From positions 1-48,282 of the forward strand of contig NZ_JANHAV010000013.1 in the NCBI RefSeq assembly GCF_024464655.1: DNA of 48,282 nucleotides, in the 5' to 3' direction. The notes beneath the pieces are model-generated. The model worked only from the letters and a program-made list of their open reading frames with translations. It did not search any database and was not told the DNA's origin. The position numbers and the translations under genes were made by a program. Each line of letters opens with the position of its first letter. Within the stretch, counting starts at the first letter, position 1. The stretch is from Halobellus inordinatus (GTDB lineage: Archaea > Halobacteriota > Halobacteria > Halobacteriales > Haloferacaceae). Positions 2,352 through 29,940 of the stretch are shown here, in pieces.

Positions 2352-3416
2352 TTATGCTATCCGTCCATATGTATTCGTATACCACTCGATAAATCGCTCA
2401 ATCCCGGTCTCGAGATCGACACGTGGTGACCAATCAAGCGTCTCATTGGCACGTGTCGTATCTGTGATGTAGACTCGTTGGTCCCCTTGCCTCCAATCCT
2501 CGAATGTCACATCGATTTCTCGCCCTTCGATGTCGCTTAATCGTTCAAGAACCTCTAGGAGTGAGACCGAGCGGTTTGGTCCTCCACCAATATTGTATAC
2601 TGACGGCTTTCCGGCCGGATCAGACAGAAATGCGTCGTAGGCTCGAATAAGATCATCGACAAACAAGACGTCACGTACTTGCTTCCCATCTCCATAGACC
2701 GTTATTTGATTATCACGAATGGCGCTGAGAATGAAGTGTGCAAGCCATCCCTGTTCTTCTGTACCAAATTGTCGGGGACCATAGATACAGCTCATCCGAA
2801 AGGCAGCAGCGTCAACGATACCACGTTGAGCGTAGTCTTGGATATAGAGATCAGCTGCTAGTTTCGAGGTGCCGTAAGGTGTATGCTTCGTATTATCTAC
2901 CGGAAACGACTCTGGAATGCCGTCGGCGTATTGGGGACTATCGAATTGATATCGGGTATCAGCTTCTTTGACAGGAATTTCGTTGACGTTTTCGCCGTAG
3001 ACTTTGTTTGTGGAGGCAAATACGACTGCTGGATTTGTGCTCGCAGCGCGTGCCGCTTCGAGTATATTGAGGGTGCCTCTTGCGTTGATGTCAAAATCAC
3101 GGCGCGGGTTTCGGAGGCTTTCAGTTACGGCTACCTGACCAGCTGTGTGGATAATAGCATCGTGGCCGTCGACGAGATCGACCATCCGATCAGCGTCTCT
3201 GATGTCAGCCTCAACAAGCGCGATGTCGGGACAGTTGTCAGATAAATACTGCCAATTGTGTTTCGTAGTGTTTGCTCGCCCTGGCTCGTCGGCGATCATT
3301 TGTTCCCGGGAGCGGGAGTCGACAACAGTGACATCTACCCCTTTCGCATTATAATATGCCGCTGCGTGGCTGCCGACGAACCCTGCGCCCCCTGTGATAA
3401 GTACGTGCTCCACCAT
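2352..3416 (-). CDS. NAD-dependent epimerase, CDP-tyvelose/paratose 2-epimerase type
   Basis: A 354-residue extended SDR. It has the Rossmann motif GGAGFVG (residues 9-15), the active-site segment STNKVYG (135-141) and the YGTSK catalytic Tyr181/Lys185. The stretch HTPYGTSKLAADLY and the block around RMSCIYGPRQFG are characteristic of CDP-paratose 2-epimerase (tyvelose epimerase), which inverts C2 of a CDP-dideoxyhexose. Relatives act on other NDP-sugars, so the true substrate may differ, as no CDP-glucose pathway genes are visible nearby. It probably supplies an activated sugar to the glycosyltransferases of this region. The C-terminus is complete and the ATG at 3416 is preceded by an AT-rich promoter region. 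Confidence 0.8.
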   Translation of the reverse strand: MVEHVLITGGAGFVGSHAAAYYNAKGVDVTVVDSRSREQMIADEPGRANTTKHNWQYLSDNCPDIALVEADIRDADRMVDLVDGHDAIIHTAGQVAVTESLRNPRRDFDINARGTLNILEAARAASTNPAVVFASTNKVYGENVNEIPVKEADTRYQFDSPQYADGIPESFPVDNTKHTPYGTSKLAADLYIQDYAQRGIVDAAAFRMSCIYGPRQFGTEEQGWLAHFILSAIRDNQITVYGDGKQVRDVLFVDDLIRAYDAFLSDPAGKPSVYNIGGGPNRSVSLLEVLERLSDIEGREIDVTFEDWRQGDQRVYITDTTRANETLDWSPRVDLETGIERFIEWYTNTYGRIA

Positions 3417-4870: not shown

Positions 4871-6001
4871 ATGACTTCCACACTCTTTATTCACGTACAA
4901 GATGTCCCTCTCACCGAGACAGACGCCGCCACCGAGAGCTTCGATAACAGCCTCTTTGCAGACCTCGTTGGTGCTGACGTGGGGTTCCCCGTGACTATCA
5001 ACGGAGACACTTTTCTTGAACGTGACCCAGGCGGCAACCCTCCACACCGTGGTCACTACCGTGGTGCGTACTCCCAGATCAGTTCCGCCTACCACGAAAA
5101 TTTCTGTGTGACCGCCGATGCACTTCTCACGGACCGTGTGAAGTTGCTTGATGATACAGTCGTTTCTATTGAAGATTATGACGCCATCGTCGTCGGCCAC
5201 TACTGGGCATATAATTACTATATTCTATATTTACTCGAACAGTATCCGGAGAAGTCAATCATTGGAATCCAAGAAGAATCAGTACAAGACGTCTCGCGGT
5301 ATTCATCACTGCTGTCAGTGTATCACCGCCGAGTCTTAGACAACATAGATGGGTACATCGTGGAAAATGACCAGTTTGAGCAGTACGTCCGACAATTCAC
5401 CGATGACGTACTCAGGGTTCCGCTGCACGTTCCAGAGGGACAATTCGAGTCTGTCACAGGATCCAATACTCGGACAGGAGAGGTTTGTCTCGGCATCACT
5501 TCTTGGAACATCGACTTCTCGAACTTTTATACGAATATCGCAGTTCTCGACCGGCTTCGAGATGATGGCTATCAGCTTAATGGGGAGCTGTTGGGCGTGC
5601 AGGATTTCCAAAAACGGATGACGGCAGACTATGATGAAATTGAGTTCGTGACGACGACAGGGTATGTCGAATCTAACTTTTATGAGTACATCTCACAATA
5701 CGAATTCGGGATCCACTTGACCACAAGAGCAACCTCGGGTCGCGTCTCTGCAGAATTCGCTGGGGTTGGTGTTCCCCTCATTGGGAATAAGAACAATGAC
5801 TTACAGCAGCGGTGCTGGCCAGACCTCAGTATTGACCCATTTGATATTGATTCCGCAATTGAACTCGGGACTCGGTTGCTAGAAGATGACGCCTTCTACG
5901 ACCAGTGCGTGCAACGAGCGTCCGAGACGGTCCAAGAACTGCAGAACTATGAAGAGACTGCTACCGAGGTGAATGCCTTTCTTAACAGCGTCGCGAATTA
6001 G
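4871..6001 (+). CDS. GT-B glycosyltransferase (GT4-like)
   Basis: A 376-residue protein with the two-domain look of GT-B enzymes. An N-terminal half ends in DAIVVGHYWAYN and IIGIQEES; a C-terminal half has an ATSGRVSAEFAGVGVPLIG segment (near residues 290-310), which corresponds to the donor-binding region of GT4 enzymes. There is no membrane segment, so it probably works on the cytoplasmic face, adding a sugar to a lipid-linked or nucleotide-linked acceptor. Donor and acceptor cannot be read from the sequence. The transaldolase homologue follows 86 bases downstream on the same strand. Confidence 0.65.
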   Translation: MTSTLFIHVQDVPLTETDAATESFDNSLFADLVGADVGFPVTINGDTFLERDPGGNPPHRGHYRGAYSQISSAYHENFCVTADALLTDRVKLLDDTVVSIEDYDAIVVGHYWAYNYYILYLLEQYPEKSIIGIQEESVQDVSRYSSLLSVYHRRVLDNIDGYIVENDQFEQYVRQFTDDVLRVPLHVPEGQFESVTGSNTRTGEVCLGITSWNIDFSNFYTNIAVLDRLRDDGYQLNGELLGVQDFQKRMTADYDEIEFVTTTGYVESNFYEYISQYEFGIHLTTRATSGRVSAEFAGVGVPLIGNKNNDLQQRCWPDLSIDPFDIDSAIELGTRLLEDDAFYDQCVQRASETVQELQNYEETATEVNAFLNSVAN

Positions 6002-6087: not shown

Positions 6088-6747
6088 ATGAAGATATTTG
6101 CTGACACTGCTGATGTCGAAGCCATTCGAGAGGCCCACGCCTGTGGGTTCATCGACGGGGTAACGACAAATCCTCAGCTCGTTGCAGATACTGACCAAAG
6201 TTACGAAGCGGTCGTGCGTGGGATTGACGAATTTCTTGAGGGACCGATCAGCGTACAAGTCACCGCGAGCAGTGAAGCGGGGATGATCGAGCAGGCCCGG
6301 GAGTTCGACACGTGGGGAGACGATATCGCAATTAAAATCCCAATGACAAAACCGGGGTTAAAGGCACTGGATACTCTCAGCGATGAGGGATACAAAACGA
6401 ACGCAACGGTTCTATTCTCTCCAGTCCAAGCGTTATTCGCTGCTAAAAATGGCGCAACCTTTGTCTCTCCGTGGTGGGGGGATGCCAACGACGCTGGTTT
6501 CAACGGATTCGATCTTGTTCGGGACGTCATTGAGATATACGACAGCTACGATTTCGATACGGAAGTGCTCGTAGCAAGTATTCGAAACCCACGCTATGTG
6601 GCTGAATCCGCAAAAATCGGAGCTGACATCGCAACAATTCCTCCCTTTGTCTTCGATATGTTCTGGGAGAATCCGATGACGGGTGCGTTCATCGATAATA
6701 TAATGGACCACTGGGGTGACAGAGGCGATCCTGCTGAAGGTGCCTGA
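6088..6747 (+). CDS. Transaldolase / fructose-6-phosphate aldolase homologue
   Basis: A 219-residue short-type transaldolase (the MipB/TalC/FSA size). The Schiff-base lysine is K83 in IKIP. D6 (FADTA) and N28 (TTNP) are in place. Compared from memory with E. coli FSA, Q57 matches the Gln59 that marks aldolases rather than transaldolases. The equivalent of Tyr131 is W129, and the phosphate-binding Arg134 is replaced by D132 in SPWWGD. This suggests a C-C lyase or ligase acting on an altered, perhaps unphosphorylated, substrate. No transketolase is nearby. It sits among glycan genes, so it may build or cleave an unusual sugar. A weak TATA-like tttactaa lies about 30 bases upstream. Confidence 0.8.
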   Translation: MKIFADTADVEAIREAHACGFIDGVTTNPQLVADTDQSYEAVVRGIDEFLEGPISVQVTASSEAGMIEQAREFDTWGDDIAIKIPMTKPGLKALDTLSDEGYKTNATVLFSPVQALFAAKNGATFVSPWWGDANDAGFNGFDLVRDVIEIYDSYDFDTEVLVASIRNPRYVAESAKIGADIATIPPFVFDMFWENPMTGAFIDNIMDHWGDRGDPAEGA

Positions 6748-6885: not shown

Positions 6886-7653
6886 TCACTCTTGGAAGGA
6901 GACAATCGGTGCCTGACCACCATCGACGCGGAGTTCGTGTCCATTGATGTAGTCACTTGCAGGGGCTGCGAGAAATGCAGCGGCTTCAGCGATCTCTTCC
7001 GGCTCAGCAAACCTACCTAACGGGTTCTGATCGGTAATGCGTTCTCGCTGGGTAGGAGATAAATCCGCGGTCATTCTCGTTTTTGCATGTCCTGGTGCAA
7101 CGGCGTTAACTCGAATCCCGAACTGACCAAGTTCGAGAGCGAGGTTTTTAGTCAGTCCGAGAAGTCCGAATTTCGCCACATCATATTGAGGTGTGAATCC
7201 CACTCCGTTTTTTGTATGTATTGAGGTGATATTGATGATCTTCCCGTATTCCTGCTCAGTCATCCCACTGAGCACGTGTTTAATACAGTATATCGAACCC
7301 CAGAGATGTGTCTCGAGATGGTTCGACCACAACTCGTCATCTGGCTCTGCTATCATTGGGGCCGCACCACTTACTCCAGCGTTATTCACCAGAATATCAA
7401 CATTCCCGTATTTTTGTTCAGTCTCTTCGACCATCGCTTCAACCGCCGCCTCATCAGTAATGTCTGCTGCGATTGTATGTGCGGAGCCACCGTTCTCAGT
7501 AATCGCTGTGACCGTCTCCTCTGCGGGCCCACGTTCAATGTCGTTGACAACTACTTTTGCACCGTTCGCTGCGAGTGTCGTTGCGATCGCACGGCCGTTT
7601 CCTCGTCCTGCTCCTGTTACGAGGGCGACCTTCTTGGAAAGATCGACGTCCAT
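6886..7653 (-). CDS. SDR-family NAD(P)-dependent oxidoreductase
   Basis: A 255-residue classical short-chain dehydrogenase. It has the cofactor motif GAGRGNG (residues 14-20), NNAG (90-93), and catalytic S144, Y157 and K161 (YDVAK). The C-terminus has the usual DYINGHELRVDGG block. Members include 3-oxoacyl-ACP reductases and glucose or sugar-alcohol dehydrogenases, and the substrate is not deducible. It lies 89 bases downstream of a Gfo/Idh/MocA dehydrogenase on the same strand, so the two may act in sequence on one sugar-derived substrate. Confidence 0.8.
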   Translation of the reverse strand: MDVDLSKKVALVTGAGRGNGRAIATTLAANGAKVVVNDIERGPAEETVTAITENGGSAHTIAADITDEAAVEAMVEETEQKYGNVDILVNNAGVSGAAPMIAEPDDELWSNHLETHLWGSIYCIKHVLSGMTEQEYGKIINITSIHTKNGVGFTPQYDVAKFGLLGLTKNLALELGQFGIRVNAVAPGHAKTRMTADLSPTQRERITDQNPLGRFAEPEEIAEAAAFLAAPASDYINGHELRVDGGQAPIVSFQE

Positions 7654-7742: not shown

Positions 7743-8828
7743 CTAGGCTAGTTTACGAGAGTCAACAAGTATGGGGTCACCAGATTCGATCGCTTCGTAC
7801 AGTGCATCGACAACGTACATATCCACTAACCCGTGTTCTCCATCTGCATATAGAGCCGTTCCAGAGAGCACGTGATCGGCGAAATACGCAAACTCCTCAG
7901 TCATTTCGTTGACCCATTCAGAATCGAACGCAGCGCTTGCTCCTCCGCGTTCAACAGTGAGATCTGTTTCCATCTGAAACGCAGGTTCAAAGTTGAGCGA
8001 GCCCTCAGTTCCGATAATTTTGAGTTGACTATCGGAGTACGCGTTTTGGCTCGCTATAAAAGAACCCTGTACGCCGTCATCAAACTTAATCATAAATGAA
8101 GTTCTCTCATCCGGTAGGTCATCAAATGCTTCATTGGGCGATTTTCCCCAAGCAGTCACCTTAGATGGGCTTGCATCCAGTAAGAACCGGGTTGTGTTTA
8201 TCAGGTAGACGCCAATATCAGTTAGTGTTGTTCCGGGGCCAACCAAATCCGAATTTAATCGCCACTGGTCTGGGTTTGGGAACGTGTCTAATAGGTCTAC
8301 AGTAAAATTCCCAACAACTTGAACTGGAGTACCTATAATTCCTTCCTGGAGAAGAGTGCGTGCACGCCGCACACTTGGATTCGTATGCATACGATAGGCA
8401 ACCATAAGCGGCACATCCTGCTGGCTACAGACATTCACCAACTCTTCAGCACGGTCAACCGTCGCTTCAAGAGGTTTCTCACAGAGAACAGCCTTGCCGT
8501 GGACTGCAGCAGTTCGAACGTGTTCTAAATGAGTTCCGTTTGGGGTTGACACATAGACGGCGTCATATAGCTCAGTAGCTTTTCCACTATCATATTCTTG
8601 ATAATCAATAAATTCGTACTGCTCTGATCCGTTGATGTGCTGCTGAGCCCTTGATTTATCACCCGTGACAATAACAGAAAGTTCACAATGCGGGGCCGAC
8701 TGAATCCCCGGAAGTGCCTGTGTGCGTGCCCAATCACCAGCACCGACGATAGCAAACCGGAGCGTACCTGATGGATCTGTCTTCCAGTCACGACGGGAGA
8801 ATCCTTCAAGAACGCTGGCAAGTTCCAT
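7743..8828 (-). CDS. Gfo/Idh/MocA-family dehydrogenase, xylose-dehydrogenase-like
   Basis: A 361-residue two-domain sugar dehydrogenase. The N-terminal Rossmann motif is VGAGDWAR (residues 28-35) and the signature CEKP is at 116-119. The opening FSRRDW followed by LRFAIVGAG, and the MVAYRM block near residue 140, resemble haloarchaeal D-xylose 1-dehydrogenase (Gfo6/XacA), as far as I recall that family. It likely oxidises a pyranose at C1 or a ring hydroxyl with NADP. In this glycan region it may instead modify an activated sugar. It is the first gene of a leftward pair with the SDR. Confidence 0.75.
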   Translation of the reverse strand: MELASVLEGFSRRDWKTDPSGTLRFAIVGAGDWARTQALPGIQSAPHCELSVIVTGDKSRAQQHINGSEQYEFIDYQEYDSGKATELYDAVYVSTPNGTHLEHVRTAAVHGKAVLCEKPLEATVDRAEELVNVCSQQDVPLMVAYRMHTNPSVRRARTLLQEGIIGTPVQVVGNFTVDLLDTFPNPDQWRLNSDLVGPGTTLTDIGVYLINTTRFLLDASPSKVTAWGKSPNEAFDDLPDERTSFMIKFDDGVQGSFIASQNAYSDSQLKIIGTEGSLNFEPAFQMETDLTVERGGASAAFDSEWVNEMTEEFAYFADHVLSGTALYADGEHGLVDMYVVDALYEAIESGDPILVDSRKLA

Positions 8829-9301: not shown

Positions 9302-10165
9302 ATGGATGTCACGAAAGCAGTCATTCCGGCAGCGGGATTCGGCACACGGTTTCTACCGGTGACGAAGGCTCAGCCAAAGGAGATGATGCCAGTCTTGGAC
9401 AAACCGGCAATCCAATATGTAGTTGAGGAAGCAGTTGAGGCTGGGATCGATGATATACTCATTATTACTGGGCGAGGAAAACAAGCTATCGAACGCCACT
9501 TCGGGAAGTCATATGAATTGGAAAAAGAGCTTGATGCCGCTGGGAAAACCGATCGGCTAAATCGCGTGCAAGAAATCGCTGACCTCGCTGATATCCATTA
9601 CGTCCGACAGAAAGAACGCGAAGGTCTTGGCGACGCAGTGCAGTACGCTCAGAAACACGTTGGTAACAATCCATTCGCACTCCTATTAGGAGATACCGTC
9701 ATCGAAAGTGACACTCCGTGCATTGAGACTCTGATTAAACACTCGGAAGAGCACAAAACATCCGTTATATCTCTAGAACGGGTCCCGTGGGCACAAGTCG
9801 CATCATACGGAATCGCTGACGTCGACGCTGACACGACTAGTGGTAGTTTTCCGGTAGCCGATTTTGTTGAGAAACCCTCACGAGATGATGCACCGTCGAA
9901 CCTTGCGATTACCGGACGGTACATCTTCACACCCGACATCTTCGACGCGCTCGCGGCGACAGAGAAGGGAATAAACGGAGAACTGCAATTGACAGATGCA
10001 CTCCGGAAGCTCAATGCGATCCGGGGCGTTGAACTCAGGGGAGATCGTTACGACATCGGCAACATCCCGAGCTGGTTGCAGGCAAATGTCGAAATGGCAT
10101 TACAACATAACGACGGCAAAATGAACGCCGCTGTCGAAGCACTTCTGCAGGATCAGTTCGATTGA
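9302..10165 (+). CDS. galU: UTP--glucose-1-phosphate uridylyltransferase
   Basis: A 287-residue nucleotidyltransferase with the signature PAAGFGTRFLP (residues 9-19) and the lysine motif PKEM (25-28), typical of GalU/AglF-type enzymes. It makes UDP-glucose from glucose-1-phosphate and UTP. UDP-glucose feeds epimerases, oxidation to UDP-glucuronate and glycosyltransferases. That matches the neighbouring ArnA-like decarboxylase, which would need UDP-glucuronate or a related compound. No UDP-glucose 6-dehydrogenase gene is in the window. AT-rich taatat about 35 bases upstream may be its TATA element. Confidence 0.88.
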   Translation: MDVTKAVIPAAGFGTRFLPVTKAQPKEMMPVLDKPAIQYVVEEAVEAGIDDILIITGRGKQAIERHFGKSYELEKELDAAGKTDRLNRVQEIADLADIHYVRQKEREGLGDAVQYAQKHVGNNPFALLLGDTVIESDTPCIETLIKHSEEHKTSVISLERVPWAQVASYGIADVDADTTSGSFPVADFVEKPSRDDAPSNLAITGRYIFTPDIFDALAATEKGINGELQLTDALRKLNAIRGVELRGDRYDIGNIPSWLQANVEMALQHNDGKMNAAVEALLQDQFD

Positions 10166-10251: not shown

Positions 10252-11097
10252 TCACTCGGAGCTGCGGTTTGTTTCAACTGTCTCTACGAGTGTCTTTGCC
10301 GCTCGTTTCACGGCCGTAATCGGTCCACGCTGCCGAAGATCTCTGCGGAATCGATAGATTAGGAGTCGAATGAGCCACGGGCGCCAATCGAAAGATTGTA
10401 TCGAGACCCCTGAGAGTGTCTGATGGAATACCCGCGGGACTCCAGTCTCTTCGTTGAGCCGTTCAGCAACTCGATCCGGATTGGGAACCCGACCATGGAG
10501 GATAGCGACGTCTTGTTCGATTACACCAGCGAATGGATACCGACAGTTGTACTCTGTTGGGAGAACTGTCATATTGACAGCTGTTTCGTAGGAGGCTTTC
10601 CGAAAGGCCGGCTGGTCACCAGCAATTCCGGGATTTGGCGCTGTTCGGTGTCCTTGAAAATGGTACTGTCCCCACGCATCTATGAGTCGATGGACAGCCT
10701 CAGTCTGGCGGTAAGCGAGGACTCCGGTATTATATTCAGGATACGCGTCAGGGACGTCCACTGGCTCTGTCTCTCGGTAGGGGTCTTCAGCGACAGCAAG
10801 TTCAAACTCGTCGAGGATATCATAGACTGGATCGAGTTCTCCGCATACAACGGTGTCTGTATCGAGAAACAGTGTCCGATCGTAACTTGAGCGGAGCAAG
10901 CAGTGTATTTTATCTCCCCACGTGTACAGTGGGTCCTGAATTACCTCCACGACGTCAAATAAGGTTGATTCTCTCGGTTCGTCGGTCAGCAGTGTGGCTG
11001 GAAGCTCTGGGTGATGTCTCTTGAGCGACCGCACAGATCGCTGTGCTTCCTGGAAATAATCTTCGCCGGTGGCGACATAGAGCACCCCTCGCGTCAC
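10252..11097 (-). CDS. GT-A glycosyltransferase (GT8-like)
   Basis: A 281-residue protein with the metal-binding DxD motif D79-T80-D81 in LFLDTDTVV, the hallmark of GT-A enzymes. Other typical parts are the opening VLYVATGEDY, the block YNTGVLAYR near residue 124 and HGRVPNP near residue 206, which could provide the late His ligand. The C-terminus is basic and may touch the membrane. It probably transfers a sugar from a nucleotide donor; donor and acceptor are unknown. It is the last gene of a leftward run with the phosphorylase homologue and the ArnA-like enzyme, 115 bases after the former. Confidence 0.75.
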   Translation of the reverse strand: MTRGVLYVATGEDYFQEAQRSVRSLKRHHPELPATLLTDEPRESTLFDVVEVIQDPLYTWGDKIHCLLRSSYDRTLFLDTDTVVCGELDPVYDILDEFELAVAEDPYRETEPVDVPDAYPEYNTGVLAYRQTEAVHRLIDAWGQYHFQGHRTAPNPGIAGDQPAFRKASYETAVNMTVLPTEYNCRYPFAGVIEQDVAILHGRVPNPDRVAERLNEETGVPRVFHQTLSGVSIQSFDWRPWLIRLLIYRFRRDLRQRGPITAVKRAAKTLVETVETNRSSE

Positions 11098-11212: not shown

Positions 11213-12079
11213 CTATCGGTACTGATCCCATTCTGGGTGAGTACTTTTCCGCGCCGACGCTTTGTATCCGGTACAGCACTCTCTCGAGTCCAAGGGGAGT
11301 TTAGACACAAGCCGTTCGATCAACCGAGTTGAATTATCGTTATACTGGGACTGTGCATCATCAATAAGTGCGAGCGTTACTGGATCAGCGTCCTGCTGAC
11401 CGATATCACCGATGTCGAAGTCGGTAATCAACGCGAGGTTGAGGAAGCACAGTTCTAGTTCACGAGCGAGGGCGACTTCTGGATACACAGACATATTGAT
11501 GATATCTGCACTGAACGAGCGGTACATATGACTCTCTGCTCGGGTAGCAAACCGGGGTCCCTCAATTACAATAACGATAGCATCGGTGTGCGGTTCCAAG
11601 CCTGCTTCGGGTGCCTCTGCCATCGCGATATCGATCATATCACGGCAGAACGGCGTATCCGAGCTAAAGTGATAGACCGGCTCAGTGTCGAAAAACGTAT
11701 CTTGCCTATTATCAGTCCAATCGATGTAATCGGTCGGGAAGACGACGCTGCCTGGTTCAATATCCTCATTCAGGCTACCGGCTGCAATTGCACTGACAAC
11801 GTGGGTAACCCCGAGTGCGTATAAGGCGAAAATGTTCGCACGGTAGTTGACCGAGTGTGACGGTATTTCGTGGTTATTCCCATGACGAGAGACGAAGGCA
11901 ACGTTCGTTCCTTCAACTTCACCAACGACGAGTGGTCCACTTGGTGACCCAAAGGGCGTCTCAACTTCTATCGTCCGTGTAACGTCAATTGCCGTTGTAA
12001 TTCCTGCTCCACCAGTAATACCAACACTCGCTGCAGGCGGTTCAGCGAGCAATTGGTCCGTGTGAATGACTTCCGTCAT
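11213..12079 (-). CDS. MTA phosphorylase / purine nucleoside phosphorylase family protein
   Basis: A 288-residue phosphorylase of the MTAP family. It shows the phosphate-site SRHG (residues 64-67), NYRAN (78-82), GSL (101-103), the block GPRFATRAESHMYR (174-187) and TDFD with D220 and D222, the Asp pair that recognises adenine in MTA phosphorylases. It would split methylthioadenosine or a purine nucleoside to a base and a sugar-1-phosphate. The substrate loop reads NMSVYPEVALARE, a Ser where MTAP usually has Thr. It lies 38 bases after the ArnA-like gene and before a glycosyltransferase, an unusual setting for a salvage enzyme. A 3' extension of about 20 basic residues is unlike the family. 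Confidence 0.8.
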   Translation of the reverse strand: MTEVIHTDQLLAEPPAASVGITGGAGITTAIDVTRTIEVETPFGSPSGPLVVGEVEGTNVAFVSRHGNNHEIPSHSVNYRANIFALYALGVTHVVSAIAAGSLNEDIEPGSVVFPTDYIDWTDNRQDTFFDTEPVYHFSSDTPFCRDMIDIAMAEAPEAGLEPHTDAIVIVIEGPRFATRAESHMYRSFSADIINMSVYPEVALARELELCFLNLALITDFDIGDIGQQDADPVTLALIDDAQSQYNDNSTRLIERLVSKLPLDSRECCTGYKASARKSTHPEWDQYR

Positions 12080-12117: not shown

Positions 12118-13176
12118 TCAAGGCTGAACATCTAACTCGGATTCGAACTGGTCAATGTAATACTGTATCGACTCCGTGAGTAAATCCTCTAAACTGTAGC
12201 GTGGCTCCCAACCAGCCGATTGGAGTTTATCCGTGTCAGGAATTCGACGCTCACTGTCATCATATCCTTCGCCATAGAATTCTTCACCCGAGATAGTACG
12301 CAGTTCTGGGAGGGTCCCATCCGGACTTAACTCCGCATAGATTGTTCTCATTCGGTTAGCAAATTCTTCGATTGTTACCTCGTTGTTTGGGTGTCCGACA
12401 TTCACGATTTCACGGTCGAATTGGCCACCTTCGTTACGCAGAATGAGCATAATTGCATCGATCGCATCTTCGATGTACGTGAATGTCCGCCTGTTTGTCC
12501 CACCATTCACCAAGTACATCGGGTGGTCAAAGAGTAACGCCGACATAAAGCTCGCGAACACTCTCGGCGTTCCTTCATCGGGTGATTCAACAAGATAGTC
12601 CATCTGTGGACCAATGAAGTTAAACGGACGGATGATGGTGTACTGAAGCTGATTCTCTTGACCGTGTGCGTGAACCATTCGTTCGAGTAACTGCTTCGCG
12701 CAGCTGTAGATCCAGCGCTGATCTTCGATAGGCCCGAGAATTAAATTCGATGAATCCTCAGAGAAGACGATATCATCTCGATTTCCGAGGAGTCCGTACA
12801 CCTCACACGTTGAGAACTGAATTAGCCTCGTGTCCGTTTCCTCACAAAGGTCGACGATTTTCAGATTTTCAAATAGGTTTAATTCGACAACCTCAAGTGG
12901 CTTATCGACGTATTGTTGCGGATTTGCATACGCAATCAGATCGAAGACAACATCTGCCTCTTTAATTACCTCGCGACAAAGCTCATCGTTCTCCTCATCA
13001 GTTATATCTGCTTCGTGGAACGTAAATGAGTCCTCACTGAGCAGGTTCGCTATCTTCTCTGAGTCGATATCAACAGCGACAACTGATTTTCCCTGGTCGA
13101 TTAGTCGTTGACAGAGGTGTGAACCGATAAAGCCACCTCCGCCAAATACAGCAATCACGCCTCTGCTGGCCCCCAC
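12118..13176 (-). CDS. ArnA-like NDP-sugar decarboxylase/dehydrogenase (extended SDR)
   Basis: A 352-residue extended SDR with GGGGFIG (residues 12-18), Y157 and K161 (YSCAK). The block RWIYSCAKQLLERM, then IIRPFNFIGPQMD, and the ending EGYDDSERRIPD, match the C-terminal dehydrogenase domain of E. coli ArnA and related UDP-xylose synthases. ArnA oxidises and decarboxylates UDP-glucuronate to a 4-keto-pentose. The Glu of ArnA E434 is kept as E125 and the Arg619 equivalent is kept in ERRIP. The Ser433 equivalent is C124 (STCEVYG). It likely makes an activated pentose for the downstream glycosyltransferase in the same leftward run. Confidence 0.75.
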   Translation of the reverse strand: MGASRGVIAVFGGGGFIGSHLCQRLIDQGKSVVAVDIDSEKIANLLSEDSFTFHEADITDEENDELCREVIKEADVVFDLIAYANPQQYVDKPLEVVELNLFENLKIVDLCEETDTRLIQFSTCEVYGLLGNRDDIVFSEDSSNLILGPIEDQRWIYSCAKQLLERMVHAHGQENQLQYTIIRPFNFIGPQMDYLVESPDEGTPRVFASFMSALLFDHPMYLVNGGTNRRTFTYIEDAIDAIMLILRNEGGQFDREIVNVGHPNNEVTIEEFANRMRTIYAELSPDGTLPELRTISGEEFYGEGYDDSERRIPDTDKLQSAGWEPRYSLEDLLTESIQYYIDQFESELDVQP

Positions 13177-13491: not shown

Positions 13492-14379
13492 ATGAGGGTT
13501 CTCGTCTGTAACGACCTTCACCTCAAACCTGCAGCGAGTGACTACGACATCGACACAATGGAGATCCCAGATGGCGTTGACGCCGTATTCATCGCCGGAG
13601 ATCTCACACATCGCGATGGAACCGATGACATTGCACTCGCACGCCGATTCATCGATCAATTTGATATTGACGTCTTGTACGTACCCGGGAACCACGACCA
13701 TGCTCCAATGCCTGTGCGCGTTGCCGAGGGATTTGAGCACGCGACCAACGGTCACAATGTGACCCGTGAGTATGAGTCGTATTCAGTCGTCGGCTGGGGA
13801 TGTGAGTCTCGATCGCTTGATAATGCGCTCGATCAAGCAGCGTTTCCTACGCTTGACCCTCGGACTGCTCCACGTGGTGAGCGACGGTATCGGGCGGATC
13901 AAACCGCGAATGCCATCGAAAGCGCACTTCATAGTCTCGTCACCAACCAAGTGACCACATCTGCTGCCGCTGATGAACTCGGTATCGCCGACGAGAACAT
14001 TCCGACGTTCCATCAGAGCGTTCACCGCATTCAGGAGACGTATGATCACCTTTCCGATCTTGTTGGCGACAGGTCGAACGTTGTCATCGTCTCTCATCTG
14101 TCCCCATTCAACACGTCTTTCGATCGACACCACTCGACAGGAACGCGTGAAGAGGATCGTGAGGCGTTTCACACCGGCTCTATTGCTCTAAAACTTATCA
14201 CAAAGACCCACGACGTCTACGCAACAGTTAGTGGGCACTCTCACGCCTTTGGGTACGAGACCGGAGATAGCGAGACAGGTGCCCCTCATATACTTAATCT
14301 CGGCTACCGTGGACTCGGTATCGTTGATATCTGTCCCACTACCAACGAGTTCAGCTTTGTTGAGCTGAACACGGGCTGA
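13492..14379 (+). CDS. Calcineurin-like metallophosphoesterase
   Basis: A 295-residue protein with the metal-binding set NDLHL (residues 7-11), AGDLTHRD (near 36-43), GNHDH (near 67-71), VSHLSPFN (near 200) and SGHSHAFG near 250. This motif order marks MPE phosphoesterases of the MJ0936/ICC type rather than PPP enzymes. It hydrolyses a phosphate ester with a two-metal centre; substrates in the family include nucleotides, phospholipids and nucleic acids. An insert of about 80 residues between the third and fourth motifs is unusual and may define specificity. It is transcribed alone, away from the glycan genes. Confidence 0.82.
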   Translation: MRVLVCNDLHLKPAASDYDIDTMEIPDGVDAVFIAGDLTHRDGTDDIALARRFIDQFDIDVLYVPGNHDHAPMPVRVAEGFEHATNGHNVTREYESYSVVGWGCESRSLDNALDQAAFPTLDPRTAPRGERRYRADQTANAIESALHSLVTNQVTTSAAADELGIADENIPTFHQSVHRIQETYDHLSDLVGDRSNVVIVSHLSPFNTSFDRHHSTGTREEDREAFHTGSIALKLITKTHDVYATVSGHSHAFGYETGDSETGAPHILNLGYRGLGIVDICPTTNEFSFVELNTG

Positions 14380-20113: not shown

Positions 20114-22438
20114 CTAATCTGCCGGCCGCGCCTGCTCCGGCGCCGATACATCCGAGAGGCTTGGGACCGAGAGATCGACCCGCCGAAGCAACTGTGCGTT
20201 GATCGCAACGATGACAGTACTCAGAGACATCAGGAGCGCACCGATGGCAGGCGATAGGAGAATCCCGATTGGGGCGAGTACGCCCGCAGCTAGAGGGATA
20301 GCGAAGACGTTGTATCCCGCGGCCCAGGCGATGTTCTCCTGCATCTTCCGATAACTCGCCTTGCTCAGTTTCACGAGTCGGACGACATCCATCGGATTGC
20401 TCTGTACGAGGATGACATCCGCTGACTGGACTGCAACGTCGGTGCCGCTCCCAATAGCGATGCCGACGTCGGCCCGCGTCAGCGCCGGTGCGTCGTTCAC
20501 ACCATCGCCGACCATCCCCACGAGCTTGCCCTGGTCCTGGAGTTCCTGGACTTTCTTGTCCTTATCTTCGGGGAGGACCTCCGCGAATACCGTGTCGATA
20601 CCCAGCTCCTCGGCGACGGCGTCGGCCACGTCCTGGGAGTCGCCAGTCAGCATCGCCACCTCGATGCCGAGGTCGTGGAGCGCATCGACGACACGGTAAC
20701 TCTCTTCACGGATCACGTCGGCCATCGCGAAGGCGGCGGTCAACTCTCCCTCACGGACGAGATACACCACGGTCTGAGCGTTCTGGCCAGCCTCGTCAGC
20801 GAAGCGTTGGAGATGGTCTGGGATCTCGCTATCGAGTTGGGTCAACAGGTTCGGCCCGCCGACGTACACCTCGTTTCCACCGTCGGACTCGTCCGACGAA
20901 CCTCCGGCGAAGCCGGAGACGTCGACGTTCGCGCGGACGCCTCGGCCTTTGATCGCCTCGAAGTCGGTCGCGTCAGGTGCGCTAAGATCACGCTCGTCGG
21001 CTGCCTCGCGGATAGCTCGTGCGATCATATGCTCTGAATCGCTCTCGACGGCAGCCGCCAGCCGGAGTGCGTCATCCTCGTCGACGCCGTCGACGGTCGC
21101 CATATCCACGACGCCGTGCTCGCCTTCGGTGAGCGTCCCCGTCTTGTCGAAGATGATCGCGTCCAGATTCCGCGCGTCCTCCATCGCGATCCGATCGCGA
21201 ACGAGCATTCCGTTCCGAGCGGCGAGTGACGTGTTGATCGCGACAACGAGGGGGATGGCGAGTCCGAGTGCGTGTGGGCAGGCGATGACGAGCACCGTGA
21301 CGACGCGCTCGATGACCGTCGCATCGAACGAGACCGCAAGCGTCCACACGATAGCTGTCACGATTGCCGCCGCGAGGGCGACGTAGAACAGCCAACCCGC
21401 CGCGCGGTCGGCCAACACCTGCGTCTTGGACTTGCTCTGCTGGGCTTCCTCGACGAGTCGCATGATGCCCGCGAGCGTCGTCTCCTCGCCCGTCGCACCG
21501 ACACGGACACGGAGACTGCCGTCACCGTTGATCGTCCCACCGATGACCTCGTCGCCGGGTTCCTTCGAGACGGGCTTGGACTCACCCGTGATCATCGACT
21601 CGTTGACGTCTGAATCTCCCTCCTCGACGACGCCGTCGGCGGGCACGCTCGCGCCCGGCCGGACGAGCACGAGGTCTCCCTCGGAGAGCTCACTCACGGG
21701 GACTTCCTCAGTGTCGCCGTCGTCAGTGATCCGCTCGGCGGTATCGGGCATCAACTTCGCCAGCTCGTCGACCGCGCTCGAGGCCCGTCGCACCGACCGC
21801 ATCTCGATCCAGTGCCCGAGCAGCATGATGTCGATCAGCGTCACAAGCTCCCAGAAGAACGCCGACTGCGTCGGGAAGACCACGCTTGCGAGACTGTAGA
21901 TGAACGCGACGGTAATCGCCATCGAGATGAGCGTCATCATCCCCGGTGCCCGGTCTTTCAGCTCCGGCACCGCCATCTGTAGGAACGGAATCCCACCGTA
22001 CGCGAAGACGATGACCGCGAAGACGGGGTTGATCCATTCGCTCCCCGGGAACACTGGGACGGAGAAGCCGAGCCACTCCTGGAGCATTTCGCTGTACAGG
22101 AGGACAGGGATCGACAGGAGTGTCGAGACGAAAAAGCGCCGGCGGAACATCTGCTCGTGGCTTTCGTGCATCCCGCCATGCCCCTCACCGTGGCCCTCGT
22201 GGGAACCGTGGTCGTGTCCTTCGTCCTCGTGTCCAGCGTGCTCGTGCTGCTCGTGGGACGCCATCTCACCTGCCGCAGCAGGGTGAGCCTCCTCCTCCAG
22301 TAGCTCCTGTTCTACCCTTTCCTCGTCTGATTCAGCGACCGCTTCATCTTGGTCGTCGTGTTCGTGCTGGTGGCTGGTGATATCCTGCTGGTCCTCTCCT
22401 CCCGTGGAATTCTCAGTTGTATCTTTGTGGCCGTCCAT
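20114..22438 (-). CDS. copB: CopB-type copper P1B-3 ATPase
   Basis: A 774-residue metal pump. The first 95 residues are acidic and His-rich ([20 protein letters not shown]), a metal-binding tail typical of CopB. The membrane-site motif is CPH at residues 387-389, which defines P1B-3 ATPases (copper export). Other conserved parts are TGES (284-287) and DKTGT (431-435, phosphorylated Asp431). There is no N-terminal CxxC domain; a separate CopZ-like protein is encoded 132 bases upstream on the same strand. It should export copper across the cell membrane using ATP. The substrate within the copper group (Cu+ or Cu2+) cannot be settled. Confidence 0.9.
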
Positions 22439-22447
22439 AGATCATAT

Positions 22448-22456
22448 TCTCTTTAG
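22448..22456 (-). promoter_or_regulatory. Shared nine-base motif upstream of copB
   Basis: On the minus strand ctaaagaga lies 9 bases before the copB ATG. The identical nine bases occur before the chaperone gene (22790-22798). It may be part of a promoter or a regulator site for copper response. Confidence 0.35.
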
Positions 22457-22570
22457 AGGTGGACCCGCCGGCTCCCTGAATCTTCGCCCCTGAAACCGTA
22501 CAGCAGGACCAGCGTAGGCAAACTCCGAAGGCAACGGTTTGCCGTTGTCTTGAACTGGTCTGTGCTACCC

Positions 22571-22768
22571 TCAGGCGTGAGCGGTATATCCTGCGTCTTC
22601 GACGGCCTCCACGAGGGCCGTGATCTCTGCCTCACCGTCGACACTTGCTTGTTCGCTCTCCCTGTCGACAGTTACGGAAGTCACGCCAGAGACCTCTTCA
22701 AGGGCCTCTTCGACCGTCTGCTCACAGTGACCGCACGACATTCCTTCCACGGTGATGGTCGTCGTCAT
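22571..22768 (-). CDS. copZ: CopZ-like copper chaperone (HMA domain)
   Basis: A 65-residue heavy-metal-associated domain with the metal site GMSCGHC near residues 9-15 and a beta-alpha-beta-beta-alpha-beta pattern. It binds copper with two Cys and would hand it to the copB-type ATPase or buffer it. I chose ATG 22768 (MTTTITVEG), which gives the family's usual length; a Met four codons upstream is possible. It shares the motif ctaaagaga with copB upstream. Confidence 0.85.
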   Translation of the reverse strand: MTTTITVEGMSCGHCEQTVEEALEEVSGVTSVTVDRESEQASVDGEAEITALVEAVEDAGYTAHA

Positions 22769-22789
22769 ACAGAGGTACATACGGCTCCC

Positions 22790-22798
22790 TCTCTTTAG
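22790..22798 (-). promoter_or_regulatory. Shared nine-base motif upstream of the chaperone gene
   Basis: On the minus strand ctaaagaga occurs 21 bases before the chaperone start, in a position compatible with a TATA box or operator. It is identical to the motif before copB. Confidence 0.35.
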
Positions 22799-22852
22799 CG
22801 GATTTCCCCTTCGATCATACTGGTCTCTTGGGGGTCAAACTTTAGAAGATGG

Positions 22853-23206
22853 TCACTCTGATTGTTCGAGCTTGTTTCGGCGGGATTCGAACTCTTCGTC
22901 CGTGAGATCGCCACGGGCGTACGCCAGACGTAATTCTTCCAACGCGGGATTGTGAGACGTTTGTGTTTCGCTCACCCGCCTGAAGAGGAGGAAGCCACCG
23001 CCGAGAAGCACAACGAGGAAGACGAGTGGGACAAGCATTCCGATAACGGGCCACCAGCCGCCGGTACTACCGTACTGGCCCATCATTCCCCCGTATCCCA
23101 TCATCCCACCGAACCCCATCCCCATGGTGAGCAACGGAAGGAGGATGAACGCTCCGAGGATCAGGAGCAGTATCGTCGTTGTGTTCAGTTGATTTGATGA
23201 AGCCAT
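22853..23206 (-). CDS. Met-rich SHOCT-domain membrane protein 1
   Basis: A 117-residue protein. Helix 1 spans about residues 10-29 and helix 2 about 52-75. Between them is a short Met/Gly-rich stretch (M28, M30, M35, M36, M41, M42) that would lie outside the membrane. The C-terminus (88-115) is a SHOCT domain, LEELRLAYARGDLTDEEF. SHOCT is a short helical domain attached to membrane proteins, of unknown role. It starts six bases after the DUF302 gene, so they form an operon. The Met stretch fits binding of Cu(I). A paralogue lies at 28500 and a third relative at 23725. Confidence 0.8.
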   Translation of the reverse strand: MASSNQLNTTTILLLILGAFILLPLLTMGMGFGGMMGYGGMMGQYGSTGGWWPVIGMLVPLVFLVVLLGGGFLLFRRVSETQTSHNPALEELRLAYARGDLTDEEFESRRNKLEQSE

Positions 23207-23212
23207 CGACGA

Positions 23213-23629
23213 TCAGGCCTCTGACGCGGGGTCGAACTCGTTTCTAACGGCTGCCAGTACACGATCAAATCGCTCGGTGACCTCGGTTGCGATGGAATCA
23301 AGCGCGTCGTTATCAGCAATCCCGACCAACTGCTCCGGATCGACCGCACTTACCACGATGTCGCCGTCATCAGTCTCATAGACGATGACGTTACAGGGCA
23401 AGAGCGCACCAAGCTCGATTTCCTCGGTTAACCCTTCGTATGCTAGCGGAGGATTACATGCACCGAGGATGCGATACTGACGGAACTCTTCGCCAAGCTT
23501 CTCCTTGAGTGTCGCCTGAATGTCGATATCACAGAGGACACCGAATCCCTCGTCCGTGAGTGCAGCGTTCGTTGCATCAACGACGTCGTCGAATTCGCCA
23601 GTGACTGTGGTCTGTATTGTGTATTCCAT
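23213..23629 (-). CDS. DUF302 domain protein
   Basis: A 138-residue protein with the DUF302 pattern: an N-terminal beta strand YTIQTTVTGEFDDVV, the helical segment LTDEGFGVLCDIDIQATLKE, then YRILGACNPPLAYE and LLPCNVIVYE. Cys residues are at C33, C58 and C79. DUF302 occurs in many metal and sulfur clusters, with no settled function. It is the first gene of a leftward pair with SHOCT protein 1 (six-base gap). Upstream lies a TATA-like gtataaca. Confidence 0.85.
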   Translation of the reverse strand: MEYTIQTTVTGEFDDVVDATNAALTDEGFGVLCDIDIQATLKEKLGEEFRQYRILGACNPPLAYEGLTEEIELGALLPCNVIVYETDDGDIVVSAVDPEQLVGIADNDALDSIATEVTERFDRVLAAVRNEFDPASEA

Positions 23630-23724
23630 AGAATGTTATACCCTGTCCGCGGGGTTAACGGTTGGGTGCCCAACAGCGATCGTTGGGGAGGGCAGTGTCT
23701 CAGATGGAACAGCAGCCGTTCCGA

Positions 23725-24078
23725 TCATCCAGTCCGTTCGAGCTGTTTTCGCCGCCGTTCGAATTCATCGTCCGAAAGCTCCCCGCGAGCGTATCGCTCG
23801 CGGAGAACCGACAACGACTGCTCATCGTCCCCGCCGGATCCTCGGTTGAGGAGCGCATAGACGAGGTAGAGCGGAACGGCGATGAGGAGCCCCATCCAGA
23901 GGAGTCCCCAGAGCCCCATCGCCCCGCCGAAGAGGCCCCAGCCGCCGCCCATCATGCCGCCGCCGTAGCTCCCACTACCGCGGGCAGCAGCCGTTCCAGT
24001 CGCCGCGACCAGCAGCGGGATGGCGAGGATCGCGAGGCGACGAGCAGTGCGTCCGATGTGAGTGATGGGTTGCGTCAT
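23725..24078 (-). CDS. Met-rich SHOCT-domain membrane protein 2
   Basis: A 117-residue protein. Helix 1 (about residues 14-32, followed by ATGTAAARG) could act as an uncleaved or cleaved signal. Residues 35-55 are Gly/Met-rich (SYGGGMMGGGWGLFGGAM), helix 2 is about 56-77 and a SHOCT domain is at 87-114 (VLRERYARGELSDDEFERRR). It is downstream of the secreted Met/His-rich protein with a 57-base gap. The Met/Gly loop shares character with SHOCT proteins 1 and 3, but the sequence is more divergent. A copper-binding role outside the membrane is inferred. Confidence 0.75.
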   Translation of the reverse strand: MTQPITHIGRTARRLAILAIPLLVAATGTAAARGSGSYGGGMMGGGWGLFGGAMGLWGLLWMGLLIAVPLYLVYALLNRGSGGDDEQSLSVLRERYARGELSDDEFERRRKQLERTG

Positions 24079-24135
24079 TGTCTTGCGGTGGTGAACTTCG
24101 GTGTTCGGTTGAAGCGATCAAAACGGTCAGAGCCG

Positions 24136-24432
24136 TTAGCAGTGGCCCTGCCCGTACATCCCGCCGTTGTAGTCGTTGTCAGCCATGTCTTGGCCCATCT
24201 CGTCGACGGTCACACCCATATGCGACTCCATCCAGTCGACGCTACCAGGGCCCATATGCTCAGTCATCTGCGTCTCCATCCAGGCCGCCCAGTCATCAGC
24301 GGTAGCGTTGTCTGTGGGCGCGTCGTCAGCTGTCGTGTCGGTACCGTGTGCGCTGACCACGGGGGCGGCGAACGCGAGTCCGACGAGCGCGAGCGCCACG
24401 AGCAGCCAGCCGCCGAGTTTGAAGTTGGTCAT
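24136..24432 (-). CDS. Secreted Met/His-rich protein, probable copper binding
   Basis: A 98-residue protein with a clear signal peptide (hydrophobic residues 8-28, ending in AAPVVSAHG). The mature part is acidic and carries many Met and His residues in MTEHMGPG, WMESHMG and DEMGQDM, with a C-terminal YNGGMYGQGHC. Such clusters bind Cu(I)/Cu(II) outside the cell in bacterial systems. A Shine-Dalgarno-like gaggag lies 7-12 bases before ATG. It precedes SHOCT protein 2 on the same strand and the multicopper oxidase lies beyond its promoter. No named family is known to me. Confidence 0.7.
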   Translation of the reverse strand: MTNFKLGGWLLVALALVGLAFAAPVVSAHGTDTTADDAPTDNATADDWAAWMETQMTEHMGPGSVDWMESHMGVTVDEMGQDMADNDYNGGMYGQGHC

Positions 24433-24660
24433 TGTCTTTCTCCTCGGTTACTCGTAGGACCGCTCGGGAGTTATGACGATGGGCGTGAACTCACGCAGGA
24501 GAACGTTCGAGAACGTGTATACAGCGTTTTAATCGTGTTTCAGAAACAAGAGCGTTCATCCGGCTCGAATTCGCCGGGATGGCACTCAACGCCTCGTTCG
24601 GAACGGGACTAAGACCACACGGGCCACAGATTGATCAACCAGAAATCGGGTCTCAACCAC

Positions 24661-26076
24661 TCATTCGACGTATTCCACAACACGCGCCATCCCCGCATCG
24701 AGGTGGTACAGATTGTGACAGTGGAACAACCACCGACCGGGGTTATCCGCGTGGAAGTCCAGCGTCACCTGTCCTCGATGTCCCGGGACGATAACCGTGT
24801 CTTTGATCGCGTTGCCGACCTGGAAGAAGTGGCCGTGAAGGTGCATCGGATGGACGACCGGGCTCTGATTGGTCATCCGAATTCGGACGTGTTCCCCCGG
24901 CTGAATCTGAAGCGGGTCGGCATCCGGATAGGCCTGTCCGTCTATCGTCCACGTGTAGGACTGGTTTCTACCACGTGAGAGCGTCAGGTCGAACGTCCGG
25001 TCTGGATCTCTACTCACACCGTCGAGTGAGGTGCGTGCTCGCAGGTCACCGTATTGCAATCTGTTACTCGAAGATGATGGAGGCTGTGGAGTGATCGAAC
25101 CGTCTGTTGATTCGTACTCGACGACAGCTCTGGCCGGTGGTTCGTTCCCGTCGAGTGCGTTCGCCTGAACGAACCATCGCCCCGGGTTCGTCGCTTCCAC
25201 GACGACATCGTACCGTTCACCAGCACCGAAGACGAACGAGTCGGCCTCGACCGGTTCGACGGGCTGGCCATCGGCGTGGGTCACCGACATCTCGTGTCCA
25301 GCGATTCGCACACCGAAGACTGTCGCACTGCCGGCATTCACGAACCGAAAGCGAACCCGATCGCCCTCCGCTACGTCGAACGTCGGGGGGTTCTCGGGCA
25401 GTTGACCGTTGATCAAAAGCCCCTCGTATGGCGGTCGAACGTCTCCCATCATTCCACCCATTCCACCGCCACCCATCCCACCGTCCGACGGAAGACGGGG
25501 TTCTCTAGAGAGGTAATCGTCAAGCACGACGACATACTCGCGGTCGTACTCAATATGTGGGTCTCGTTCTTCAACGATCAGGGGACCGAGTAATCCACGA
25601 TCGAGTTGGAGTCCGACGTGGCTGTGGTAAAAATACGTCCCAGCGGGTTCGGCACGGAACTTGTATGTGAATGTATCACCGGAGGCAACCGGCTCTTGCG
25701 TCACGTTCGGTACGCCGTCGACTGGATTCGCAACGGGAATCCCGTGCCAGTGAATCATCGTCTCCTCCTGCAAGTCGTTAGCCAGTTCCACGCTGAGCAC
25801 GTCACCTTCCTGCACGCGCAACTCTGGGCCCGGGTACTGTCCGTCGTACAGCCAAGTAGTCGTCGAAGCATCCGAATCTGGTCGAATGGTCCCAGACGTC
25901 GCAGTGAGGCTAACGGAGGTATCCGGGGCAGCTGTGACAGTCGGACGGAGGGTCACCGCACGACCGCCACCATCGTCGGTGCCCGGTAGCGGACTGGCAC
26001 ACCCCGCAAGCGCTCCGAGAGTTGATATCCCCGATAATTGGAGGAGTCTACGGCGAGAAAGTCCCCAGGAGGTCAT
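24661..26076 (-). CDS. Multicopper oxidase, Tat-exported lipoprotein
   Basis: A 471-residue enzyme. It begins with a twin-arginine signal (SRRRLLQLSG, residues 7-16) and lipobox LAGC with Cys26, so it is probably anchored on the outer face of the membrane. Copper-site motifs are HWHG (109-112), HSH (151-153), HPMHLHGH (409-416) and HCHNLYHLDAGM (452-463) with type-1 ligands His409, Cys453, His458 and Met463. A Met/Gly-rich loop (GMGGGGMGGMMG, near residue 200) resembles the copper-binding insert of CueO. It would oxidise Cu(I) outside the cell. TATA-like tttact lies about 30 bases upstream. Confidence 0.9.
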   Translation of the reverse strand: MTSWGLSRRRLLQLSGISTLGALAGCASPLPGTDDGGGRAVTLRPTVTAAPDTSVSLTATSGTIRPDSDASTTTWLYDGQYPGPELRVQEGDVLSVELANDLQEETMIHWHGIPVANPVDGVPNVTQEPVASGDTFTYKFRAEPAGTYFYHSHVGLQLDRGLLGPLIVEERDPHIEYDREYVVVLDDYLSREPRLPSDGGMGGGGMGGMMGDVRPPYEGLLINGQLPENPPTFDVAEGDRVRFRFVNAGSATVFGVRIAGHEMSVTHADGQPVEPVEADSFVFGAGERYDVVVEATNPGRWFVQANALDGNEPPARAVVEYESTDGSITPQPPSSSSNRLQYGDLRARTSLDGVSRDPDRTFDLTLSRGRNQSYTWTIDGQAYPDADPLQIQPGEHVRIRMTNQSPVVHPMHLHGHFFQVGNAIKDTVIVPGHRGQVTLDFHADNPGRWLFHCHNLYHLDAGMARVVEYVE

Positions 26077-26198
26077 TGCCTTCGTTTTCGCGGTCAGCGA
26101 GTAAAGGCCTCGCGATGAGAGAAGTTCATACGGCCATCCTCGTTCCGAGTTTAGTCCCGGCGATACGGTGAACGATCCCGGATTCCCGAGACCCCCCG

Positions 26199-26792
26199 CT
26201 AGTTCGCCTGTTTCTGTTCTAAGTCGTCGCTTGGATAGATGCGATACGTTCGCCCTTGTCGCTCACGGTACAGTAAGCCGCGCTTCTCGAGGGCCCTCAC
26301 CGTCTGACTGACCTTGCTTTTCGAGAAGTTCGAGCGATCCCGGAGTTCGATCTGTGTGATACCGGGCGACGAGAGGACCGGTTCGAGAATTCGGCGTTCG
26401 TCGTCCGGCAAGAGATCCAATACGCGAGCCTGTGGCTGGGACTCCGGATTGATCTTTCCCTCAGATTGAACGGCCTCTTCCTGCGATTCGATACTCTCAG
26501 AATCGGTTGGATTCGCCATCTCAGTCTGTGAGCGATCGGCTACCTCTGTGCTAGTGAGCTCGTCCCGAACCACGAGATAGCCCCCACCAACGACAGCCGA
26601 GACAAGAAGCGTCCCGAGAACGTACAAGAGTGGGTTCGTTCCGTGAACCGCGCCCATCGATGTACCCATCATCGAGCCCATCTGCTCGAAGGCCTGCTGT
26701 TGCTGGTACGCTTGCCAAGTGAGCACACCACCGACGATGAGGACGGCAGCGACCAAGGCACCGGCTACGGTATCGGCTCGCCGTCGATTCAT
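26199..26792 (-). CDS. Membrane-anchored winged-helix regulator with Met-rich loop
   Basis: A 197-residue protein starting at ATG 26792, decided by a Shine-Dalgarno-like ggtggag 3 bases before it and by the basic NRRRAD N-terminus. Helix 1 is about 7-27, a loop follows (28-53) with M38, M41, M42, M46 and H50 (QMGSMMGTSMGAVHG), and helix 2 is about 54-75. The cytoplasmic part ends in a MarR-like winged helix (130-186: ITQIELRDRSNFSKSKVSQT). The positive-inside rule puts the loop outside. I infer an extracytoplasmic copper sensor that acts on DNA directly. It lies between the oxidase and the YHS-permease, both on the same strand. Confidence 0.75.
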   Translation of the reverse strand: MNRRRADTVAGALVAAVLIVGGVLTWQAYQQQQAFEQMGSMMGTSMGAVHGTNPLLYVLGTLLVSAVVGGGYLVVRDELTSTEVADRSQTEMANPTDSESIESQEEAVQSEGKINPESQPQARVLDLLPDDERRILEPVLSSPGITQIELRDRSNFSKSKVSQTVRALEKRGLLYRERQGRTYRIYPSDDLEQKQAN

Positions 26793-26923
26793 CTTCTCCA
26801 CCTCGATCCTCCGAGACACTTGCTCATACGTGAGAGTTCGTGAGACATTGCTGTACCAGTTTTGATTGGCCAACGCAATCACGGGGCTGGCAGCCCCACA
26901 AATTCGATATCTCCAATCGATGT

Positions 26924-28318: not shown

Positions 28319-28499
28319 AGATGTATCATCGTGCGGATCATCTTTTGCAGTTTTCCTTCAGATAGTTCGGGCTAGAGCCGTGATAAGTATGAATTCAAAA
28401 GAATAGCGGTGGGAGTAGCACGAAGGTCTAAGGCACAACCGCATTGAATAGTTAGTGCGTAGTAACACTTGAGACCCAAACTCACGGAGGGATCACAAT

Positions 28500-28871: not shown

Positions 28872-28894
28872 TTCCCATCCGGCAAGCTTGAACG

Positions 28895-29536: not shown

Positions 29537-29680
29537 GGATTTGTAACAGGTGACTGTTTTCAACGCTGTTCGAAAAAGTGGTGGGAAGACTGCTAATTCG
29601 AGGAGGAGAGGGTGACCAAGACTCCTTCACTGATCACAGCCCGAAGAAACGTTTTCTGTGGGCAGCTCCTCAACACGAGT

Positions 29681-29902: not shown

Positions 29903-29940
29903 TCGGCGCTATCGGTCCATTCGTCGCCTTCAGCGACCGA

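Follow-up and report, generated by a model that had tools for sequence, protein, structure and literature searches.

The window analysed here, a whole contig of 48,282 bases, carries a gene for a protein of the TAL/FSA family in which the arginine that binds the substrate phosphate has been replaced by aspartate. We consider it rather probable that the protein is a natural Schiff-base aldolase, using a donor of the dihydroxyacetone (DHA), hydroxyacetone or glycolaldehyde type and an unphosphorylated partner, and that it works with the enzymes of a shared gene cassette in a pathway of their own. It is a real, unusual natural variant within a known enzyme family; a new kind of system is not indicated on present evidence. 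The gene and its altered loop are:

6088-6747, plus strand: TAL/FSA-family class I aldolase variant (profile, alignment and structure model), key residues Q57, K83, W129, W130, D132, N134, S164 and R166.
6466-6492, plus strand: codons of the SPWWGDAND loop, D132 being the GAT codon at 6481-6483.

The open reading frame translates into 219 amino acids with no stops inside, and a profile search matched it to Pfam TAL_FSA (PF00923) at 2.5e-45 (155 bits, cut-off 27). An AlphaFold model gave an intact barrel with a mean pLDDT of 94.8, and Foldseek placed it at TMq ~0.92-0.93 to 3r8r, 1vpx and 3s0c (0.93 for 3r8r). Among solved structures, 1vpx and 4xz9/3s0c, both small transaldolases, come closest in sequence. 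We aligned the protein with 57 homologues and three references using MAFFT. The Schiff-base Lys83 is present with its partners D6, T26, N28 and T107, and the correspondence with Escherichia coli FSA is Q57=Q59, K83=K85, T107=T109, S127=A129, W129=Y131, D132=R134 and S164=S166. The initial annotation had read D6, N28, Q57 and K83 as kept, with W129 in place of Tyr131 and D132 in place of Arg134, and the alignment bore out each of these assignments. Judged from these residues and the modelled fold, the protein is probably a catalytically active aldolase of class I (Schiff-base type) with the barrel of the small transaldolases.

The small transaldolases of Thermotoga maritima (TM0295, 1vpx), Thermoplasma acidophilum (Tal, 3s0c) and Bacillus subtilis (3r8r), at 42-44% identity and TMq ~0.92-0.93, share with the window protein the Schiff-base Lys and the positions of Asp6, Asn28, Asn105, Ser127, Ser164 and Arg166. 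In contrast to them, the window protein has Gln57 for Glu, Trp129 for Phe, Asp132 for the phosphate Arg and Asn134 for Asp137 (T. acidophilum numbering), and no transketolase partner. The transaldolase pair of Glu and Phe (T. acidophilum E60/F132) is thus absent, with Q57 and W129 instead. E. coli FSA (1l6w) has the acid-base Gln, the Lys and the Thr109 equivalent in common with the window protein but differs at Tyr131 (Trp129), Arg134 (Asp132) and Lys168 (Arg166), so that of the fructose 6-phosphate (F6P) aldolase pair (E. coli Q59/Y131) the Gln is kept and the Tyr has become Trp. Overall the protein is nearer to the transaldolases than to FSA. The proposal that Gln57 marks an aldolase is consistent with PDB entry 4xz9, a T. 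acidophilum transaldolase E60Q/F132Y with a DHA Schiff base and G3P, whose Glu-to-Gln change the window protein has naturally.

The arginine at the D132 site (E. coli Arg134, TalB R181) is invariant in 55+ other TAL/FSA relatives, the only exceptions being the window protein, with Asp, and its closest relative, with Thr in the loop STWWGT. It was also present in 11 haloarchaeal and 1 viral-contig homologues aligned later, twelve sequences that include repeat fetches of some of the same genes. The loss of the phosphate arginine, as first proposed, is thereby confirmed. The phosphate site of TalB consists of two Arg and one Ser (PMC3962226); two of these three known ligands are kept as Ser164 and Arg166, at positions invariant across the family. 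A search for another Arg that might fill the vacated site gave Arg169 as the sole candidate, and a weak one: it is the only Lys or Arg common to both variants and rare elsewhere, and E. coli FSA has it along with R134. With Ser164 and Arg166 still in place, and Arg169 common to both variants, some phosphate binding could persist through these three residues. The Asp itself may not matter, as the relative has Thr. The initial annotation had held that an acid at this site argues against a sugar-phosphate substrate. The TalB variant F178Y/R181E, which has at least 2-fold better affinity for the unphosphorylated acceptor D-glyceraldehyde (PMC3962226), favours this view, although the gain is modest and, with Ser164, Arg166 and the shared Arg169 in place, exclusion of phosphate is plausible rather than certain.

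The closest relative, clearly ahead of all others at 64% identity, is a protein (L002/L071) from a genome of another genus within the same family (G347; the window's own genome is G000). Both proteins have Q57, W129, W130, N134, N195 and I205, most of which are rare or absent elsewhere; among them are joint changes from D136 to N134, from H198 to N195 and from F208 to I205 (the latter two in T. acidophilum numbering). In a tree the two sisters form their own clade (100/98), apart from the haloarchaeal transaldolases with Glu and Phe and also from the FSA-like proteins of haloarchaea with Gln and Tyr. An NG86 comparison gave dN ~0.28, dS ~2.9 (saturated) and dN/dS ~0.1; the gene is under purifying selection between the two genera. 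At >60% identity the aldolase occurred in 2 of 170 family genomes, G000 and G347 only, and searching further genomes, in the family of G318, added no third one. When viral contigs were scanned for the aldolase and for two of its cassette partners described below, the MTAP-like and UAXS-like proteins, the only return was L096, a distant transaldolase with the Arg.

The nearest group after the sister comprises haloarchaeal transaldolases (L003-L010 and L059; 50-58% identity), all of which, unlike the window protein, have Glu, Phe and Arg. A separate haloarchaeal FSA-like group (L011-L020 and L060-L063) has Gln and Tyr with the Arg intact, mostly as APYVGR, and the Woesearchaeal and nanoarchaeal transaldolases L044, L054, L055 and L056 carry a loop FWAR with one Trp, the Arg kept and ED for DD. 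The sulfofructose transaldolase BmSF-TAL (8c4i) has the same family fold with a changed acceptor anion. A sulfonate also needs a positive charge and Asp gives none; on this and on the identity of only 33%, we rejected a sulfosugar transaldolase.

Could the lost arginine be trivial? A sequencing artefact is unlikely because the sister lacks the Arg independently, the WWGD codons are clean (TGG TGG GGG GAT) and dN/dS against the sister is low; on the intact reading frame, the sister's Thr and the dN/dS value, we rejected both sequencing error and a pseudogene. That the protein has decayed into a non-catalytic homologue, which the loss of an otherwise invariant substrate-binding residue might suggest, we regard as scarcely credible in view of the retained Lys83, Asp6, Asn28 and Thr107, the selection across two genera and the conserved cassette. 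More weight is due to an ordinary F6P aldolase or transaldolase that can do without one Arg and holds the phosphate by Ser164, Arg166 and perhaps Arg169. The kept, family-invariant Ser164 and Arg166 speak for it, as do strong matches to Pfam and to the fsa_talC_mipB equivalog TIGR00875. However, the latter scores (224.3 bits for the window protein, 240.8 for the sister) both lie below the curated cut-off of 245.95, all other aligned relatives keep the Arg, and here its change to an acidic or neutral residue comes together with several shared pocket changes. Neither genome has a convincing transketolase: profile searches gave only a 95-codon Transketolase_N match in G000 (24.7 bits, marginally above the family cut-off) and a short, weak match in G347 (19.6 bits, below it), both probably belonging to other thiamine enzymes. 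Taken together, we judge an ordinary enzyme of this kind unlikely, though not far-fetched.

The same searches bear on the pentose phosphate pathway. The haloarchaeal transaldolases that were checked (L059, G318 and G021) lie beside transketolase, with full matches adjoining the TAL gene in both G318 and G021, and with TK genes adjoining it in L059; they appear to serve that pathway. Since ordinary haloarchaeal transaldolases adjoin transketolase, and since G000 has neither a second transaldolase nor, like G347, a convincing transketolase, such a role for the window aldolase is unlikely and we rejected it. Dak1 (DHA catabolism) was absent from G000 and present in G347, which is not decisive.

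A gene-by-gene comparison found five proteins common to the window and the G347 contig. Besides the aldolase these are:

6886-7653, minus strand: SDR sugar/polyol dehydrogenase, cassette member, 68% identical to its L071 counterpart.
7743-8828, minus strand: Gfo/Idh/MocA oxidoreductase, cassette member, passing the haloarchaeal Gfo6 (D-xylose 1-dehydrogenase) model.
11213-12079, minus strand: second, divergent MTAP-like nucleoside phosphorylase homologue, cassette member, below the MTAP equivalog cut-off.
12118-13176, minus strand: UDP-apiose/UDP-xylose-synthase-like (UAXS-like) NAD-dependent enzyme, cassette member, 62% identical to its sister.

The remaining identities between the two genomes were 55-56% for the Gfo6-type dehydrogenase and 45-46% for the MTAP-like protein. 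The cassette spans ~7 to 14 kb in each genome; it is not one operon, because gene order differs and the genes lie on both strands. At E<=1e-60 the UAXS-like enzyme was found in 2 of 167 family genomes, again only G000 and G347, and the MTAP-like match of G347 scored 260 bits against ~185 bits or less for the housekeeping matches in all other genomes. Independent coincidence is an unlikely cause of this five-gene sharing; a common function or a joint transfer would account for it simply. The initial annotation mentioned neither the cassette nor the kept Ser164 and Arg166, nor the changes N134, N195 and I205.

The two MTAP-like proteins scored 240.2 bits (window) and 228.0 bits (sister) against the MTAP equivalog TIGR01694, both below its cut-off of 274.85. 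They keep the Arg-His pair and the EGPRF segment, together with what we take to be the nucleoside-site residues of human MTAP. The genes (11213-12079 and L071:5011-5925, both on the minus strand) differ from each other, and both differ from human MTAP, at residues that probably belong to the phosphate site; T18, presumably phosphate-binding in the human enzyme, is Ala or Tyr in the pair. From these residues, the protein may be either a hydrolase or a phosphorylase with an altered specificity.

The best solved relative of the UAXS-like enzyme is the Arabidopsis UDP-apiose/UDP-xylose synthase AXS1 (6h0n), at 297 bits compared with 233 for ArnA, and at 46% identity over aligned residues compared with 37% for ArnA/U4kpxs. 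In a 9-sequence tree the enzyme grouped with AXS1 and UAS-like bacterial proteins (100/100). For the signature residues, including the roles of Cys100 and Cys140, we relied on the summary in PMC12820599. The equivalents of AXS1 Tyr105, Cys140 (Cys124 here) and Glu141 are kept; Cys100 is replaced by Ala84, as in ArnA, so that the product may be UDP-apiose, UDP-xylose or a UDP-4-keto-pentose. The same combination, Cys at the position of Cys140 and Ala at that of Cys100, recurs throughout a haloarchaeal clade (window 12118-13176, minus strand; L071:11413-12471; L097:13947-15023), whilst the bUAS-type homologues L124 and L125 have the opposite pattern. The Halomarina copy (L097) is annotated merely as an NAD-dependent epimerase. 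According to PMC5607165, bacterial UDP-apiose synthases have no conserved neighbours; archaea are not mentioned there.

Under the preferred reading of a natural aldolase with an unphosphorylated partner, Lys83 would bind the donor, a small hydroxy-carbonyl compound akin to dihydroxyacetone, hydroxyacetone or glycolaldehyde, as an imine, with Gln57 and a water as the acid-base pair. Gln57 in place of the transaldolase Glu would bias the enzyme towards plain aldol cleavage or synthesis and away from transfer. The acceptor pocket would be rebuilt by the two Trp, Asn134 and Ile205, and an unphosphorylated aldehyde or ketone would there meet Asp132 (Thr in the sister) and the two Trp; we infer that this partner is not a sugar phosphate because of the changed main phosphate Arg and the rebuilt pocket. 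The enzyme would then serve a special pentose pathway with the UAXS-like enzyme, the two sugar dehydrogenases and the MTAP-like phosphorylase.

A more specific formulation, that the aldolase acts on an unphosphorylated branched pentose (apiose to and from DHA and glycolaldehyde) or on an aldehyde derived from a nucleoside, within a haloarchaeal cassette not described before, strikes us as improbable as it stands. Its first half would have the aldolase interconvert free D-apiose with dihydroxyacetone and glycolaldehyde, in a pathway starting at the UAXS-like enzyme. The carbon skeleton of apiose is that of DHA plus glycolaldehyde, engineered FSA is known to take glycolaldehyde as a donor, and the kinship of the UAXS-like enzyme with AXS1 and the plant and bacterial UAS-like proteins points the same way. 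Nevertheless, the Ala at the Cys100 site leaves UDP-xylose or a UDP-4-keto-pentose as possible products, a ketone acceptor is unusual in the TAL/FSA family, and Halomarina has the UAXS-like enzyme on a plasmid (L097) on which neither an aldolase nor an MTAP-like gene was detected, an empty result that covers the plasmid only and is weak. We therefore place little confidence in a role in apiose metabolism. For a nucleoside-derived aldehyde, the two Trp would stack on the base, the MTAP-like protein would handle the nucleoside and the dehydrogenases would make the aldehyde, with a nucleoside or a high-carbon sugar as the product. In favour, the MTAP-like paralogue is confined to the cassette and has its nucleoside-site residues, and the sister locus additionally carries a UshA/5'-nucleotidase-like gene. 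However, SDR relatives at ~60% and Gfo6 relatives sit in sugar-catabolism loci; a nucleoside substrate seems very improbable.

The window also holds nucleotide-sugar and glycosyltransferase-like genes around the aldolase, for none of which the sister contig showed a homologue:

2352-3416, minus strand: GalE/dTDP-glucose-dehydratase-like nucleotide-sugar enzyme.
4871-6001, plus strand: weak glycosyltransferase-like protein, encoded upstream of the aldolase.
9302-10165, plus strand: GalU-type UTP--glucose-1-phosphate uridylyltransferase.
10252-11097, minus strand: weak GT8-like glycosyltransferase candidate.

The glycan-gene setting described in the initial annotation is thus real, with the two glycosyltransferase calls weak. 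The surface sugar that it proposed as a product is no more than possible, since the conserved partners would suit a pathway for pentoses or nucleosides at least equally. The sugar genes are flanked by a dual-specificity phosphatase and two calcineurin-like phosphoesterases (750-1226, 1337-2194 and 13492-14379), which might supply dephosphorylated substrates. GC content is ~0.49-0.54 over the first 14 kb, rising to 0.56-0.65 for the most part beyond, which suggests that the low-GC part is an acquired sugar-gene island. Further along lie a metal-handling region (20114-32154) with two P-type ATPases, a multicopper oxidase, an ArsP-like permease with a YHS domain and a MarR-like regulator, and, at 46499-47506 on the minus strand, a protein with an NrS-1 phage polymerase-type domain (PF22763), possibly a mobile-element replication gene.

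Enzyme engineers have swapped this same Arg to obtain aldolases for unphosphorylated substrates, which are wanted in synthesis. Like the window protein, TalB F178Y/R181E has an acid at the Arg and a change at the same Phe, and T. acidophilum Tal E60Q/F132Y has Gln for the same Glu, again with that Phe changed; the window protein differs from both in being natural, in having Trp instead of Tyr at the Phe site and in its other pocket residues. Evolution in a halophile appears to have made a related change with further changes in the pocket, and we know of no report of the latter. Should the apiose reading be true, this would be, to our knowledge, the first archaeal pathway of that type. More generally, a rare five-enzyme archaeal cassette with a UAXS-like enzyme may represent a new sugar or nucleoside pathway, and one that is directly testable.
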